Assembly: GCA_943704415.1 (NCBI GenBank)
Contig: CALSCO010002020.1
Span: 1-43,829 of the forward strand
Direction of reading: 5' to 3'
Source of the DNA: Parvularia atlantis
Lineage: Eukaryota > Opisthokonta > Rotosphaerida
DNA: 43,829 nt
Position 1 is the first letter of the stretch. Each line of letters starts with the position of its first letter. Shown in pieces: positions 17,617 through 23,598 of the stretch. A program made the translations under genes and the position numbers. The notes under the pieces were generated by a model. The model was not told the origin of the DNA. It made no database searches and worked only from the letters and a program-made list of their open reading frames with translations.

Positions 17617-17933
17617 CGGACAGAGTGCGATCACAGCAAAGAGGGGCCAGCGCCTCGCTTGCGACTGAGTCACTTGAGGGCTACGCCGGACCAAAGGCGT
17701 TCGTGCTGGCGCCGCTGCGCAAGCTCCGTCTGGCGACCGTGACCATCGTCTTCGACAAGCAGGGGCTGCGCCGAGGTCAACTCGGACGCCGACCGACTTC
17801 GAACTCTCTCTCCGACTTCTACATCAAACCTGCGCTGATGCCGCTTGCCTCGCAGCCCGCAGTGTCCACAGCGCTGTGGCGTCCAAATGAAAAAGAAAAG
17901 CGGTCCATCAGCGGACGCCAAACAAAAAAAAGT
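17617..17933. promoter_or_regulatory. Spacer between the START-like gene and tRNA-Met
   Basis: This 317-bp stretch contains the presumed promoter and 5' UTR of the START-like gene and the T-run (about eight T on the minus strand, next to 17932) that would end Pol III transcription of the tRNA. No other gene is visible. It is more A/T-rich near the tRNA. Confidence 0.5.
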
Positions 17934-17969
17934 TGCGGGCAGTGAGAATCGAACTCACGACCTTGGGAT

Positions 17970-18021
17970 ACCACATCCCGTCCCTCATGTCGTCACGACA
18001 ATGACGCAAAATGGTGGCGCT
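17970..18021 (-). other. Canonical 37/38 anticodon-loop intron of tRNA-Met
   Basis: A 52-nt intron one base 3' of the CAT anticodon. It contains a near-perfect hairpin (CATTGTCG/CGACATG), and its two ends can pair through CCAC/GTGG. Confidence 0.85.
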
Positions 18022-18038
18022 TATGAGACCCACGCTCT

Positions 18039-18082
18039 AATTTCGAACAGTGACACCTCATGAAGGGAGGGTGCACACTGTC
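18039..18082 (-). other. Non-canonical D-loop intron of tRNA-Met
   Basis: This 44-nt insert sits between GGTT and AGAGC of the D-loop. It folds on itself: ACAGTG pairs with CACTGT, and inside that CAC.CTC pairs with GAGGTG around a CCTTCAT loop. The flanking 4-bp TCGG/TCGA helix and 3-nt TTG bulge match what a tRNA splicing endonuclease recognises. Confidence 0.8.
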
Positions 18083-18106
18083 AACCGACTGAGCCATGCC
18101 CGCTAC

Positions 18107-18198
18107 ATGATCCGTGACGGAGAATTCCATATATTCTTGTTTCAATGTGGCGTCCTTCCGCCGCACTGCTTCCGGAACATTCTGCTGTCACGGATCAT
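18107..18198. promoter_or_regulatory. 12-bp inverted repeat in the tRNA-Met / VPS15 divergent region
   Basis: ATGATCCGTGAC at 18107-18118 is the exact reverse complement of GTCACGGATCAT at 18187-18198, with 68 bp between. The enclosed A/T-richer segment includes the ATATAT expected for the tRNA. The right arm ends 14 bp before the VPS15 start. Confidence 0.7.
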
Positions 18199-18212: not shown

Positions 18213-21183
18213 ATGGGCAACGCGGTGTCGGGCACGGCGAGCGCGCCGCTGATGGGCACGCCGGAGCAGTACGCGTCGGAGCTGGGGGACCTGCGCAACC
18301 TCGAGTCGGTGGGCAACACGCGGTGCGTGCGCGATGTGGCCGCGCGCGATCAGTCGCTGACGGCTGACGTGCGCTCGTTCGCAGGTTCTTCAAGACGATG
18401 CGCGCGGACCACGCCGAGGGGCGCGTGATCGTCAAGATGTTTGTGAAGCCGCAGTCGTCGTTCTCGCTGGCGGAGCGGCGGAAGCATCTCGAGGTGCGCG
18501 CCCTCGTCTGCGCCCGACGCGCCCCGCTGCTGCTGATCGCGCTCGTAGGATGTGCGCGATGCGCTGCGCGGGTGCGCCAACGTGCTGCCGCCGCGGCGGA
18601 TGGAGGAGACGGACAAGGCCGGGTTCATCGTGCGGCCAGAGTGCTACCTGTCGCTGTACGACCGCATCAGCACGCGCCCGTTCCTGAGCGCAATCGAGAA
18701 GCGGTGGATCACGTACCAGCTGCTCAACGCGCTCGTCGAGAGGTGCGTGCGCGTGTGCGCGCACGGTCGCTGAGCCGCGCGTGCGTGCGCGCAGCCACGG
18801 CAAGAGCGTGTGCCACGGCGACATCAAGGCGCAGAACGTGCTTGTGACGACGTGGAACTGGGTCTACTTGACCGACTATGCGACAACGTACAAGGTGCGC
18901 GCGTGGCATGCCTCAGCCGCGGTCGCCGGCGCACCGACCCCTTGCGTGCGCACGCAGCCCGTGACGCTGATCGAGGACTACCCGGCCGACTTTTCATACT
19001 TTTTCGACACGACCGGGCGGCGCACGTGCTACATCGCGCCCGAGCGCTTCTGCCGCTCGGAGGGGGCCGTGCGCGACATGGTGCTCACGCCCGAGATGGA
19101 CATCTTCTCAGCGGGCTGCGTCATCGCCGAGCTGTTTCTCGAGGGCCAGCAGCTGTTCAACCTGTCGCAGCTGCTGAGCTATCGTGGCGGCGAGTACGAC
19201 CCGCGGCCGGCCGTGGACAAGATCGAGGACGAGCACGTACGGAGCCTGGTGCTCGAGATGATCGCGCTCGACCCGCGCGCCCGCCTGCCGGCGCAGGCGT
19301 ACCTGGACAAGTGCACTGCTGTGCGGCTTGCTGCTGCTCGAGCTGACGCAGGCGGCCCGCGCAGGTACCGCGGGCTCGTCTTCCCGTCGTACTTCACGCA
19401 GTTCCTGCACTCGTACACGCAGCTGCTCACGGACCCGCACTCGCCCGGGACCGACGCCGATAGCCGCGTCGACCGCATGTTCCACTCGTTTGTGCTCATG
19501 GGCGTGGCGATCGGCATGATTCAGGTCGACGGCCCGACGGCCCGCGCGCCCGCGCCCTCGCCCGCCGTCACGCACGCCCCGCCGCCCGCGGCGCTCGCGC
19601 TCGACATCGTCCTCAGCATCCCCGAGTACACGTTCTCGCCCGTCCCCGTCCGGCCCGACTACGACGAAGGCGCGCTCATGTTTGTCTCGCTGGTCTGCTC
19701 GTCCTTGCGCTCGCTCGCCCGTCCCTCGTCGCGCCTCAAGGCCCTGGACCTGCTCCTTGCCTTTGGTGCGTACCGGCTGGGTGTTGGCTGAGTGCTCGTG
19801 CGCTGGACACGGGTGCGCTGGGTGCGGGTGCGCTGGGTGCGGTTTGTGCGCTGTGTGTGGGTGTGCGGGTGTGCTGGTTGCGCCTGCCTGTTCACTGCTG
19901 TCTATCAGCACATGCCTGCGCTCTTGCCTGCGCACCGTGCTCTTGCCACATCTCGCCGCCCACCCTGCCTCGCCCCGCCCCAATCAACTCACACCACGCA
20001 ACCGCACGCCGCAACAGGCGCACACATCTCGGACTTTCACAAGCTCGAGCGCATCGCGCCCTACGTCGTGATGCTGCTGCTGGACCGCGTGCCCCTCGTT
20101 CGCGCCCAGGCCCTGCGCACGCTCACGCAGCTGCTTGGCCTCGTGCGCACCCTCACCCAGGCCGACACCGAGATCTTCTCGTCGTACCTCCTCCCGTACC
20201 TGACCCGCCTCGGCGGCGACCGCGACGTGCTCGTCCGCACCACCTACGCCACTTGCCTGCCCACGCTCTGTGCCATCGCCCAGCGCTTCCTCGAGACCTC
20301 GTTTGCCCTCGTCCACGAGCACGACGCACGCGCCGCCGCCGCCGCCGAGGACACCGCTAGCGCTCTCGCCAGCGCCAACGCCGACGCCACCCCGGCCACC
20401 GCCACCGCCACGGCCACCCCGAGCGACTTTGTCGTCGCCGCCGCCGCGACCGAGACGTTTGATGCGGCGCTGGTGCAGCTGCGCGAGACGATGCGCGGCG
20501 AGGTCATCAACATGCTCGGCGACCGCGAGCCCAGCGTCAACCGGGCCATGCTCGCGGGCATGGGCGACCTCGCCGCCTTCTTCGGCCACGACAAGCCCGA
20601 CATGCTCCTGCCCTACCTCACCACGTTCCTCAACAAGGACGACTGGCACCTGCGCGCGGCCTTCTTCGACGCGACCATCAACCTGAGCGTGTTTGTGGGC
20701 CTGCATCGGTTCGAGAGCTTCATCCTCCCGCTCATGACCGAGTCGCTCGCGGACGAGGACGAGTCGGTCGTCGCGCACTCGCTCGCCGCCCTCGCCGCCC
20801 TCGCCACAAAGGGCCTCTTCCCCAAGGGCACCCTGCGCAGCCTCGCCGCGCGCATCGCCCCGCTCCTGTGCCATCCGGGCGCGGGCGTGCGCTTTGGCGC
20901 GATCGCCGTCGTCACGACCGTTGCCAGCCTCTTCGCCCCGTCCGACGCCTTCTGCCTTCTTCTCCCGCTCGTCCGTCCGTTCCTCACCCACCCGATCGTC
21001 GCCATCGACGAGACGTCGCTCCTGCGCGCCCTCCAGCCGCCGCTCTCCCGGCCCATGCTCGACCAGGCCCGCGTCTTTGCCCAGCGCCTCGCCGTCCTGC
21101 AGCAGCAGCGGCTGCAGCAGCAACAGCAGCTGCTACAACAGCAGCTCCAGCTACTCCAGCAACAGCAACAGCAGCAGCAGCAA

Positions 21184-21223
<40 letters not shown>

Positions 21224-23598
21224 GTGGCGGGACGGGCGACGCCGCCGCCGTCGTGGGCTCGCCCACCCCCGTCTCCAACGTCACCGCGGCGGCCACTGCC
21301 GCAGCCGCCGCAGCAGCAGCAACCGCCGCAGCCGCAGCCGCCGAGGCCGTTGTGCCTGAGGAAGAGTTCCGCAAGAACGTGCGCAACCTCGGCCTGAACG
21401 AGCTCGACGAGACCAAGCTGCTGGCGATGCAGCACCTCATCGTGCGTCGCCGCGCCGCCGCCGCGCGCCCGTCTGCCGCGCCCATCACGCGCGAGCTCTC
21501 GACCGCGAGCTTCGTGATCACGTCCAACAGCAGCGCCAACGGCCCGCCCGACGACGCGCCCGTTTCGCTGCGTGGCATGGGCCTGCCCGTGCGCCGCACC
21601 GCGCCCTTCCCGCTCTCGTCCGCGCGCCGCGTCCCGCAGCAGGCGCCGTCGCAGCCGCGCCGGAGCGAGAGCATCTACGGCACGTCGCCGCCCGCCGGCG
21701 AGCTGCGCGTGCCCACGCCGCGCCGGCCCTCGCTCAGCCAGCCGCGCCAGTCGGCCGCGTCGGCCGCGCTCACGACCGTCATGGCCTCGACCGGCATCGC
21801 CACGCCATCCTCGCCCGTGCACCAGCCCCTCCAGGCCCTGACCAGCGTCCAGCCTCTGTCCGGCAGTGCGCCCGCCGACGACGCCGTCCTCCCGCTCACG
21901 CACGACGATCCGGCCTGTCCCGTCGAGGAGCTCTGGACCGCGCCCGTTGTCTCGCGCAAGGGCAGCATGCACCGGCGCGCCAACTCGCGCTCGGGCCTCG
22001 CCGTGCCCGACAGCGTGCTCAACGGCAGCGCGGGCGCCAGCGGCGCGGCAAGCGGCGGCCCGGCTGGCTCGGCCGCGTCGCTCGGCGTCGGCGCGGGCTC
22101 AGCGGGCGGCGGCGGCGGCGGCAGCAGCAGCAGTACAGGGACAGGCGCGGGCTCAGCAAGCACGGGCGGCAGCGCGGCAACACCCACTGGCGGTGGCGGT
22201 GGCGGCGGCGGCGGCGGCGGCACCGCGGTCGGCAGCGGCGGCAGCAGCGGCAGCACGGCGTACGCGCCACTTTATCAGTGGCGGCCCGAGGGCACGCTCG
22301 TGCTCAACCTGCACGAGCACCAGGAGGCGATCGTGTGCATCCGCGCCGCGCCCGACGGCTCATTCTTCGTTACGGCCTCGGCCGACTCGTTTGTGCGCCT
22401 GTGGGACCTGCAGCGGCTGGACCGGCACTCGCACCGGTCGCGCGACCGCGTGTCGATCTCGAGCCTGACCAGCGGCAAGATCGCGACGGTCGCCTTTGTC
22501 GACAACTCGCTCATGTTTCTCGTCGCGTGCACGGACGGCACGATCCTGCTCTACCGCGTTGAGCATGATGTGAGCACGTCGCGCATGATCCTCGTGCGGC
22601 GGCTGCGCGTGCGCGCGGGCCACGCCGTGTGGATGGAGCACTACTACCAGGGCGAGAGCTCCGTGCTGGCCTACGCCACGACGGCCGGGCGGCTGGCCGC
22701 GGTAGACCTGCTGACGGGCGAGCTTTTGTGGTCGCTCGAGCACCCGGCGCGGCACGGGACCGTCTCATCTGTGGTGATGGACCGGAGGCGGCTGTGGCTC
22801 GTCGCCGGGACCAACTACGGCACGCTTTCGTTCTACGACCTGCGCTTCCAGACGTGCGTCAAGGCGTGGGTGGTGCCGCAGCGCGCGGCCGTGACGCAAC
22901 TCTCGCTCCACCCGCGCCACCCGACCTGGGTTGTCGCGGCGACGGCGCGCGCGGCCGAGGTGATCGTGTGGAACCTCGAGACGTGGCACTTTGCCCAGGT
23001 GCTCAACACGGCCGAACGCGGCGTGCGCACGTGGTGGGCCGAGGTCAGCACGTTCCAGATGCACGACACCGTCGGCGAGATCCTCACGCCCAAGGTCGCC
23101 GTGCCGCCGCAAGAGCAGGCCGTGCGCGCCCTCGTCGCCCCGTCCGACACGGGCTTCCTCGTCACGGCGGGCACGGACCGGCGCATCGTCTTCTGGGACC
23201 TGCAGGAGGGGTCGCGTTCGTTTGTGGTGAGCACGGGCGGACCGCCGCCGAGCAGCATCGCGCCGCCTGCGCCGGGCCAGTTCAAGACCGAGGACTGCCA
23301 GGGCATCACGTTCTGGTACGAGACCAAGCCGCCCGACGCGCAGCGCAACGCGTCGGCCACCGCGACGGCGAGCGCGGGCGTGGCGGGCGCGGCGGCGGCG
23401 GCGGCCAACGTGTCGGCGGCGATGCAGGGCACGTCGTCGATCGCGCTCAGCAGCAGCGTCATCGGCCAGGCCGCATTCCGGCGCCAGCGGCAGCTCCACG
23501 CGGGTCACAAGGACTGCATCACCGCGCTCGAGCTGGTCGAGCACCCCAACATGCTCATCAGCGGCTCGCGCGACGGCGCAATCAAGGTGTGGAAGTGA
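18213..23598 (+). CDS. VPS15: VPS15 / PIK3R4, regulatory subunit of class III PI3-kinase, 7 exons
   Basis: A myristoylated pseudokinase-like scaffold that recruits and activates VPS34 to make PI3P in endocytosis and autophagy. Length is 1615 residues against 1358 in human. Exons: 18213-18322, 18385-18493, 18549-18742, 18795-18894, 18958-19310, 19365-19765, 20018-23598. The start MGNAVSG is an N-myristoylation signal. The kinase part shows YDRISTRPFL, EKRWITYQLLNAL, CHGDIKAQNV and FFDTTGRRTCYIAPERF, close to human, with TDYA in place of DFG. HEAT repeats follow (about 420-730), then a poly-Q tract (about 783-824), poly-A, Ser/Pro-rich and poly-G/S linkers, and a WD40 propeller (about 1175-1615) ending SGSRDGAIKVWK. 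Intron 6 (19766-20017, 252 nt) is the longest in the window and is built of GGTGCG-type repeats. Confidence 0.96.
21099..21223 (+). repeat. CAG/CAA tract encoding poly-Gln in VPS15
   Basis: Mixed CAG and CAA codons, interrupted by Leu codons early on, encode the poly-Q stretch between the HEAT and linker regions of VPS15. It is followed by a GCC/GCA poly-Ala run. The codon mix suggests selection for Gln, not pure slippage. Confidence 0.9.

Follow-up and report, generated by a model that had tools for sequence, protein, structure and literature searches.

On the minus strand of the window (the whole stretch of DNA that was analysed, 43,829 nucleotides, which is one whole contig of an assembly of 16,251,876 bases in 616 contigs) lies an interrupted tRNA-Met(CAU) gene of 170 nt in three blocks (17934-18103). 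Exon 1 (18103-18083) provides the 5' strands of the acceptor and D-stem and the D-loop to position 20a. Exon 2 (18038-18022) continues with A21, the D-stem 3' strand, the anticodon stem 5' strand and the loop CTCATA, and exon 3 (17969-17934) completes the molecule with A38, the anticodon stem 3' strand, the variable loop AGGTC, the T-arm, the acceptor 3' strand and the discriminator A; CCA is not encoded. The exons are separated by intron 1, 44 nt in the D-loop at 20a/21 (18082-18039), and by intron 2, 52 nt at the canonical 37/38 position (18021-17970). Joined, they form a tRNA of 74 nt that ARAGORN calls as tRNA-Met(cat), as a sequence-only reading of this DNA had proposed; its addition that every stem is intact fails at one place, U31.U39, the sole unpaired opposition. 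This opposition is also found in plant elongator tRNA-Met. T54 is consistent with an elongator.

The accompanying signals, all on the minus strand, are those that had been described. An A-box-like motif, TGGCTCAGTCGG (18085..18096), is unbroken and ends 2 bases ahead of the start of intron 1, and the T-arm motif GTTCGATTC (17946..17954) is the B-box core. A T8 run (17924..17931) behind the gene probably acts as the RNA polymerase III terminator, and TATATGG at -30 (18127..18133) is a putative TATA-like upstream element. With a CAU cloverleaf, T54, no encoded CCA and a T-run behind it, the locus is a nuclear elongator tRNA-Met gene. Judged from its sequence, it contains an ectopic intron, that is, one outside 37/38, whose removal would restore a standard tRNA.

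Routine tools pass over this gene. ARAGORN found no genes in the unspliced window, and an Rfam search of the window at the gathering threshold with fast filters gave no matches. With lax filters, the gene scored 43.9 bits against RF00005 (cut-off 29; E 3.2e-6), and the alignment shows extra nucleotides in the D-loop and after the anticodon, at both intron sites. Elsewhere in the window, a CTG-type repeat (21090-21223) has Rfam matches that are below their cut-offs.

The nuclear origin of the gene, also claimed earlier, is borne out by its surroundings. Eukaryotic proteins matched in the window are VPS15-like, FYVE, BTB, sideroflexin and eIF3c, and GC content in 2-kb bins is 65-74% up to 38 kb and 56-58% beyond, against 23-33% at the loci of the mitochondrial contigs (C3, C242 and C530). 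Those contigs have matches to nad1, ccmC and ribosomal proteins, and nad4, nad6 and cox2 were recognised by eye in translations. Of the 120 nad1 matches listed, five were named to organism, at 67-70% identity: four belong to non-cyanidialean red algae and one to Ancoracysta. Another of the matches listed reaches 95% identity, and none of them bears the name Picozoa. A VPS15 search returned 11 matches, none close, and a search for elongation factors gave four fragments, in which the mitochondrial type was recognised and cytosolic EF2 was not. Several features of these genes are of separate interest. On the mitochondrial contigs rps3, rps7, rps8 and rps11 lie in strongly extended reading frames (L009, L011 and L013), with the rps7 domain within an ORF of 1139 aa, and ccmC is mitochondrially encoded. 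In the VPS15-like gene, a stop codon at 19789-19791 parts the same-frame ORFs 18688-19791 and 19792-23598, perhaps marking an intron.

Junction and fold of the D-loop intron

The D-loop had been described as split by 44 nt between GGTT and AGAGC. Site and length stand; because TT occurs at both ends of intron 1, the cut can slide by 1 or 2 nt, and its exact place is uncertain within that range. Cutting at GGT^T...AAT^T would restore a 9-nt D-loop. At this register, and under strict geometry, a bulge-helix-bulge has three of the four central pairs and all three inner pairs; at the register tested, at least 3 of 4 central pairs were reached by about 24% of intron shuffles. Folded freely, the region is predicted to form the D-stem, a central UCG:CGA helix, a GUU bulge and, as the inner helix, GACAGUG:CACUGUU with 7 bp. 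The energy of this D-arm fold has a z of -2.3, a moderate gain over shuffles (6 of 200 equally good), and intron 1 alone is predicted to be a hairpin with a z of -2.6 against dinucleotide shuffles (1 of 200 equally good).

The central helix first proposed for intron 1, TCGG/TCGA, was rejected: its strict register would leave an 11-nt D-loop, and UCG:CGA of the free fold takes its place. The proposal that intron 1 can fold into a bulge-helix-bulge is retained in a relaxed version with a central helix of 3 bp, and by these models the motif is the weakest among the ectopic introns described here.

Nuclear tRNA genes of the assembly

We found 33 nuclear tRNA genes with 33 different anticodons, a number that is a lower bound. 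Rfam, run for tRNAs over the whole genome, matched 48 places, of which 25 lie on mitochondrial contigs and 23 are nuclear; the tRNA-Met gene is not among them. Ten more genes came from motif searches and inspection: the window gene, Arg(CCU), Val(UAC), Arg(CCG), Thr(UGU), Leu(UAA) and four permuted genes. Read by eye, the 33 comprise 15 uninterrupted genes, nine with a 37/38 intron alone, five with ectopic introns and four permuted. ARAGORN called the spliced forms of all nine 37/38-only genes as read, and the joined tRNAs of all nine ectopic and permuted genes with the expected anticodon. In intron mode the same program misnamed intron-bearing genes (L032, L033, L035, L036, L043 and L044); we read their anticodons with the junctions, 37/38 or ectopic, as the guide, and spliced L032, L035, L036, L043 and L044 were then called as assigned. 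The gene at L033 (1169-1271), tRNA-Leu(UAG), has a variable region of 34 nt. A test for a hidden intron there found no junction that restores a normal arm; as it stands the gene has no ARAGORN call and an Rfam score of 48.8 bits, and was provisionally counted as uninterrupted.

The pattern searches differed in yield and in how far their matches were followed. A T-arm-plus-terminator pattern gave 51 rows, of which 41 were assigned. Of these, 26 stand for 24 genes, that of the window and the 23 from Rfam, two genes being listed twice; five are new tRNA genes, five are mitochondrial, and five are places that were fetched and have no tRNA. A D-arm pattern matched 69 places, 15 of them known, and 37 of the other 54 were fetched, yielding four permuted tRNAs and 33 places with none by scanner and eye. 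Two further patterns matched 49 places (five known; 10 of the 44 others fetched, no tRNA) and 12 places (two known; all 10 others fetched, no tRNA). For initiator tRNA-Met, one pattern gave a single place with no tRNA there and another gave 27 rows, inspected as rows. A pattern with 1,127 matches was too degenerate and was dropped.

A scanner for acceptor, D-arm, T-arm and T-run with gaps allowed made 26 matches in 102 nuclear loci (196,275 bases, some overlapping), including the window. All 26 are among the 29 linear tRNA genes, the three missed being Ala(AGC), Trp and Leu(UAA), and 20 first-order Markov sequences of 196,275 bases each gave no match on either strand.

An upstream element resembling TRRGYGTTT precedes nuclear tRNA genes, for example at L024, L027, L035, L040 and L059. 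GCGTTT lies within -60 to -10 of eight of the 33 genes against 0.17 expected, and matches to the upstream motif set start at -29 or -30 in seven tRNA genes and elsewhere in others.

No second elongator tRNA-Met turned up when the 16.25-Mb assembly was searched by motif, and the window gene alone among the 33 has the anticodon CAU. An apparent Met(cat) at L035, an ARAGORN intron-mode reading, was discarded as Leu(CAA) once the 37/38 intron was removed. Genes for iMet, Cys, Phe, Tyr and Ile(AAU) were not found in the census, which means that it or the assembly has gaps; a second elongator gene may be among what is missing.

Ectopic introns and permuted genes

Five of the 33 genes have ectopic introns, and Thr(UGU) is the one other gene among the 33 with an intron in the D-loop. 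The Thr(UGU) intron, of 19 nt, has a central helix AGTG:CACT with 4/4 pairs (inner 2/3), a score that is not fully independent since we chose the point within the D-loop. Elsewhere in the tRNA, Val(UAC) has 28 nt at 27/28, with a central helix TCAC:GTGA (4/4; inner 3/3) and a junction fixed by anticodon-stem pairing alone. In Ile(UAU), 37 nt in the variable loop have the central helix CGTG:CGCG (4/4; inner 3/3) and their removal leaves the 5-nt loop AGATC; in Leu(UAA), 57 nt in the T-loop have GTTC:GAAC (4/4; inner 3/3) and leave TTCGAAC, and for both genes we set the junctions with an eye on the motif, so that these 4/4 scores are not fully independent. Shuffled introns reach 4/4 central pairs in 6.4% (Thr), 1.0% (Val), 3.8% (Ile) and 4.3% (Leu) of cases. 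The lowest-energy folds of the Thr and Val regions include the proposed central helices, and these folds are no more stable than those of shuffled regions, of which 110 (Thr) and 149 (Val) of 200 did equally well. Three of the genes also have a second intron: 13 nt at 37/38 in Val(UAC) with 3/4 central pairs, 56 nt at 37/38 in Ile(UAU) with 2/4, and 25 nt in Leu(UAA) that split the anticodon (34/35 or 35/36) with 3/4.

The distribution of these inserts bears on whether intron 1 might be retained, giving a product whose D-loop would measure 53 nt, or whether the locus might be silent. We know of no working tRNA with a D-loop of that length, and the inserts in the anticodon stem and T-loop of other genes could hardly work unspliced; we find retention or silence scarcely credible. 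The four additional ectopic-intron genes back the suggestion that the endonuclease of this lineage would accept introns outside the anticodon loop.

Permuted nuclear genes, with the 3' half first, number four, all with the junction at 37/38. They are Pro(CGG) with a spacer of 10 nt (central 4/4, inner 0/3), Gly(GCC) with 3 nt (3/4 and 1/3), Glu(UUC) with 9 nt (4/4 and 2/3) and Ser(UGA) with 14 nt (4/4 and 1/3), the inner pairs being poor at the strict place. In three of these genes a promoter-like element, similar to the upstream element of the other tRNA genes, starts 40-68 nt ahead of the 3' half. The scan for permuted genes made eight matches, these four and four on mitochondrial loci that were excluded from the count; four in 196,275 bases compares with one in total in 20 Markov sequences of equal size.

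Could the window gene be a decaying tRNA-Met pseudogene with a 44-bp insertion, with a normal gene elsewhere supplying the tRNA? In eukaryotes, insertions in the D- and T-arms mostly affect a single gene among many synonymous ones, and such genes are regarded as pseudogenes (PMC4090602). Gaps in the assembly or in the search may have hidden a normal copy here, as only part of the pattern matches was fetched. Yet the stems are intact apart from U31.U39, the terminator and upstream element are in place, no second copy of the elongator gene was found, and among the remaining tRNA genes found, too, each anticodon has a single gene. Decay of a single copy, moreover, does not explain eight more genes that are disrupted outside 37/38 or permuted. 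Because these other disrupted genes exist, we set decay aside as unlikely, in agreement with the earlier argument against a pseudogene.

The splicing endonuclease

Inspection of the SEN genes, suggested with the first reading, indicates that SEN2, SEN34 and SEN54 are encoded. The PF01974 profile matches two genes of the assembly. With exons joined at splice sites that we chose, the SEN34 catalytic domain matches chain 6z9u_A (E 8.8e-32), that of SEN2 matches SEN2 chains (best 8iss_B, E 1.1e-30), and both joined forms match PF01974. In both proteins the stretches with a tyrosine, a histidine and a lysine, which we take to be the catalytic residues, align well. The SEN54 N-terminal domain was found with E 3.7e-14, and a SEN54 piece with 2e-14. 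SEN34 and SEN2 (L088 and L089) have apparent spliceosomal introns of the form GTGCG...CAG.

Removal of intron 1 by some route other than these enzymes and a bulge-helix-bulge, as is conceivable for the very short introns of nucleomorphs, has some points in its favour: the motif of the elongator gene is relaxed, the mode of removal of 3-nt introns in the Guillardia theta nucleomorph is unknown (PMC4090602, in part), and many ectopic introns of that nucleomorph are without a defined motif (PMC3978253, likewise). Nevertheless, four other ectopic introns of this genome reach 4/4 central pairs under strict geometry, and SEN2, SEN34 and SEN54 are present, so we judge such a route very unlikely.

Discussion

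We consider it highly probable, from the sequence evidence, that the window holds a functional, apparently single-copy nuclear elongator tRNA-Met gene, from which the SEN2/SEN34 endonuclease removes both introns. We infer the following course of transcription, cleavage, order of removal and ligation. RNA polymerase III would transcribe the gene through to the T8 run, aided by the TATA-like element at -30. The endonuclease would cut intron 2 at the usual anticodon site, and it would be able to remove intron 1 because this intron and the flanking D-loop fold into a relaxed bulge-helix-bulge, with the D-stem, UCG:CGA as the central and GACAGUG:CACUGUU as the inner helix. A tRNA ligase would then join the exons. 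The same endonuclease would also deal with the remaining ectopic introns and open the precursors of the permuted tRNAs, accepting the motif at many places in the tRNA as in the red alga Cyanidioschyzon merolae.

Taken together, the disrupted genes suggest that the elongator tRNA-Met is one member of a genome-wide pattern of tRNA disruption of the Cyanidioschyzon merolae kind. The comparisons that follow draw on excerpts of the cited papers. In C. merolae 11 of 43 tRNA genes are permuted, introns are scattered, and SEN2, SEN34 and SEN54 are present with no apparent SEN15 (PMC3978253). The two genomes resemble each other in a nuclear size of about 16 Mb, in permuted tRNA genes together with D, anticodon and T region introns that have bulge-helix-bulge motifs, in an upstream TATA-like element and in the SEN2, SEN34 and SEN54 genes found. 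They differ in that all four permuted genes here have the junction at 37/38, one intron lies in a variable loop, GC is about 70%, and the SEN2 and SEN34 genes have GTGCG...CAG introns. The C. merolae Ile(UAU) gene has D-, anticodon- and T-arm introns, the anticodon (37/38) one being thought the last to leave (PMC9602550, in part); its D-arm intron, at 12/13, is a further difference.

Other systems share parts of the pattern. Prasinophytes also have permuted genes, there nearly all with the junction at 37/38 (Maruyama 2010 via PMC3978253), and the 27/28 intron of Ostreococcus lucimarinus Ser(TGA) is at the site of the Val(UAC) intron. Green algae, as excerpted in PMC3978253, combine permuted genes with almost no tRNA genes that have atypical introns, in contrast to the several found here. 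Permuted genes are also reported in parts of papers on Auxenochlorella (PMC12633428) and chlorarachniophyte nucleomorphs (PMC4494063). The Guillardia theta nucleomorph, like this genome, has D- and T-arm introns, three introns being in its elongator tRNA-Met (Kawach 2005 via PMC4090602 and PMC3978253), but that genome is a nucleomorph and not a nucleus, and its non-canonical inserts range in length from 3 to 24 nt, and many of them lack a defined motif. In archaea (Crenarchaeota and others) the bulge-helix-bulge is transplantable and 20/21 is among the known sites (PMC4090602, in excerpt); unlike here, both enzyme and host are archaeal.

Non-canonical tRNA introns are otherwise held to be rare in eukaryotes (excerpt of PMC4090602), and in the part of PMC4033280 available the table of tRNA genes with multiple introns names C. 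merolae as the sole eukaryote. This literature, as excerpted, agrees with the sequence-only reading that ectopic introns are rare in nuclear genomes, with C. merolae as the nuclear case. We found no further nuclear genome of this kind in the literature, among the matches listed. The kind of disruption is already known; the host appears to be new for it, with no close named relative in searches with three of its proteins (nad1, VPS15 and ccmC), which brought up metagenome relatives or distant named ones.

In such genomes, essential genes are missed by standard searches, the whole-genome Rfam tRNA search having recovered 23 of the 33 nuclear ones found here. The endonuclease of eukaryotes is said to locate position 37/38 by measuring; in the papers covered here, C. 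merolae and, where permuted genes are concerned, certain green algae stand as the exceptions among nuclear genomes. The chances seem to us evenly balanced that a eukaryotic lineage beyond the algal cases already known, perhaps non-photosynthetic, has independently evolved or anciently kept archaea-like, position-independent tRNA splicing, with introns in the D-loop, anticodon stem, variable loop and T-loop alongside permuted genes and with an endonuclease that still includes SEN54. A second nuclear genome that has tRNA introns in multiple regions together with SEN2, SEN34 and SEN54 would allow a comparison that tests what frees the enzyme from its ruler.
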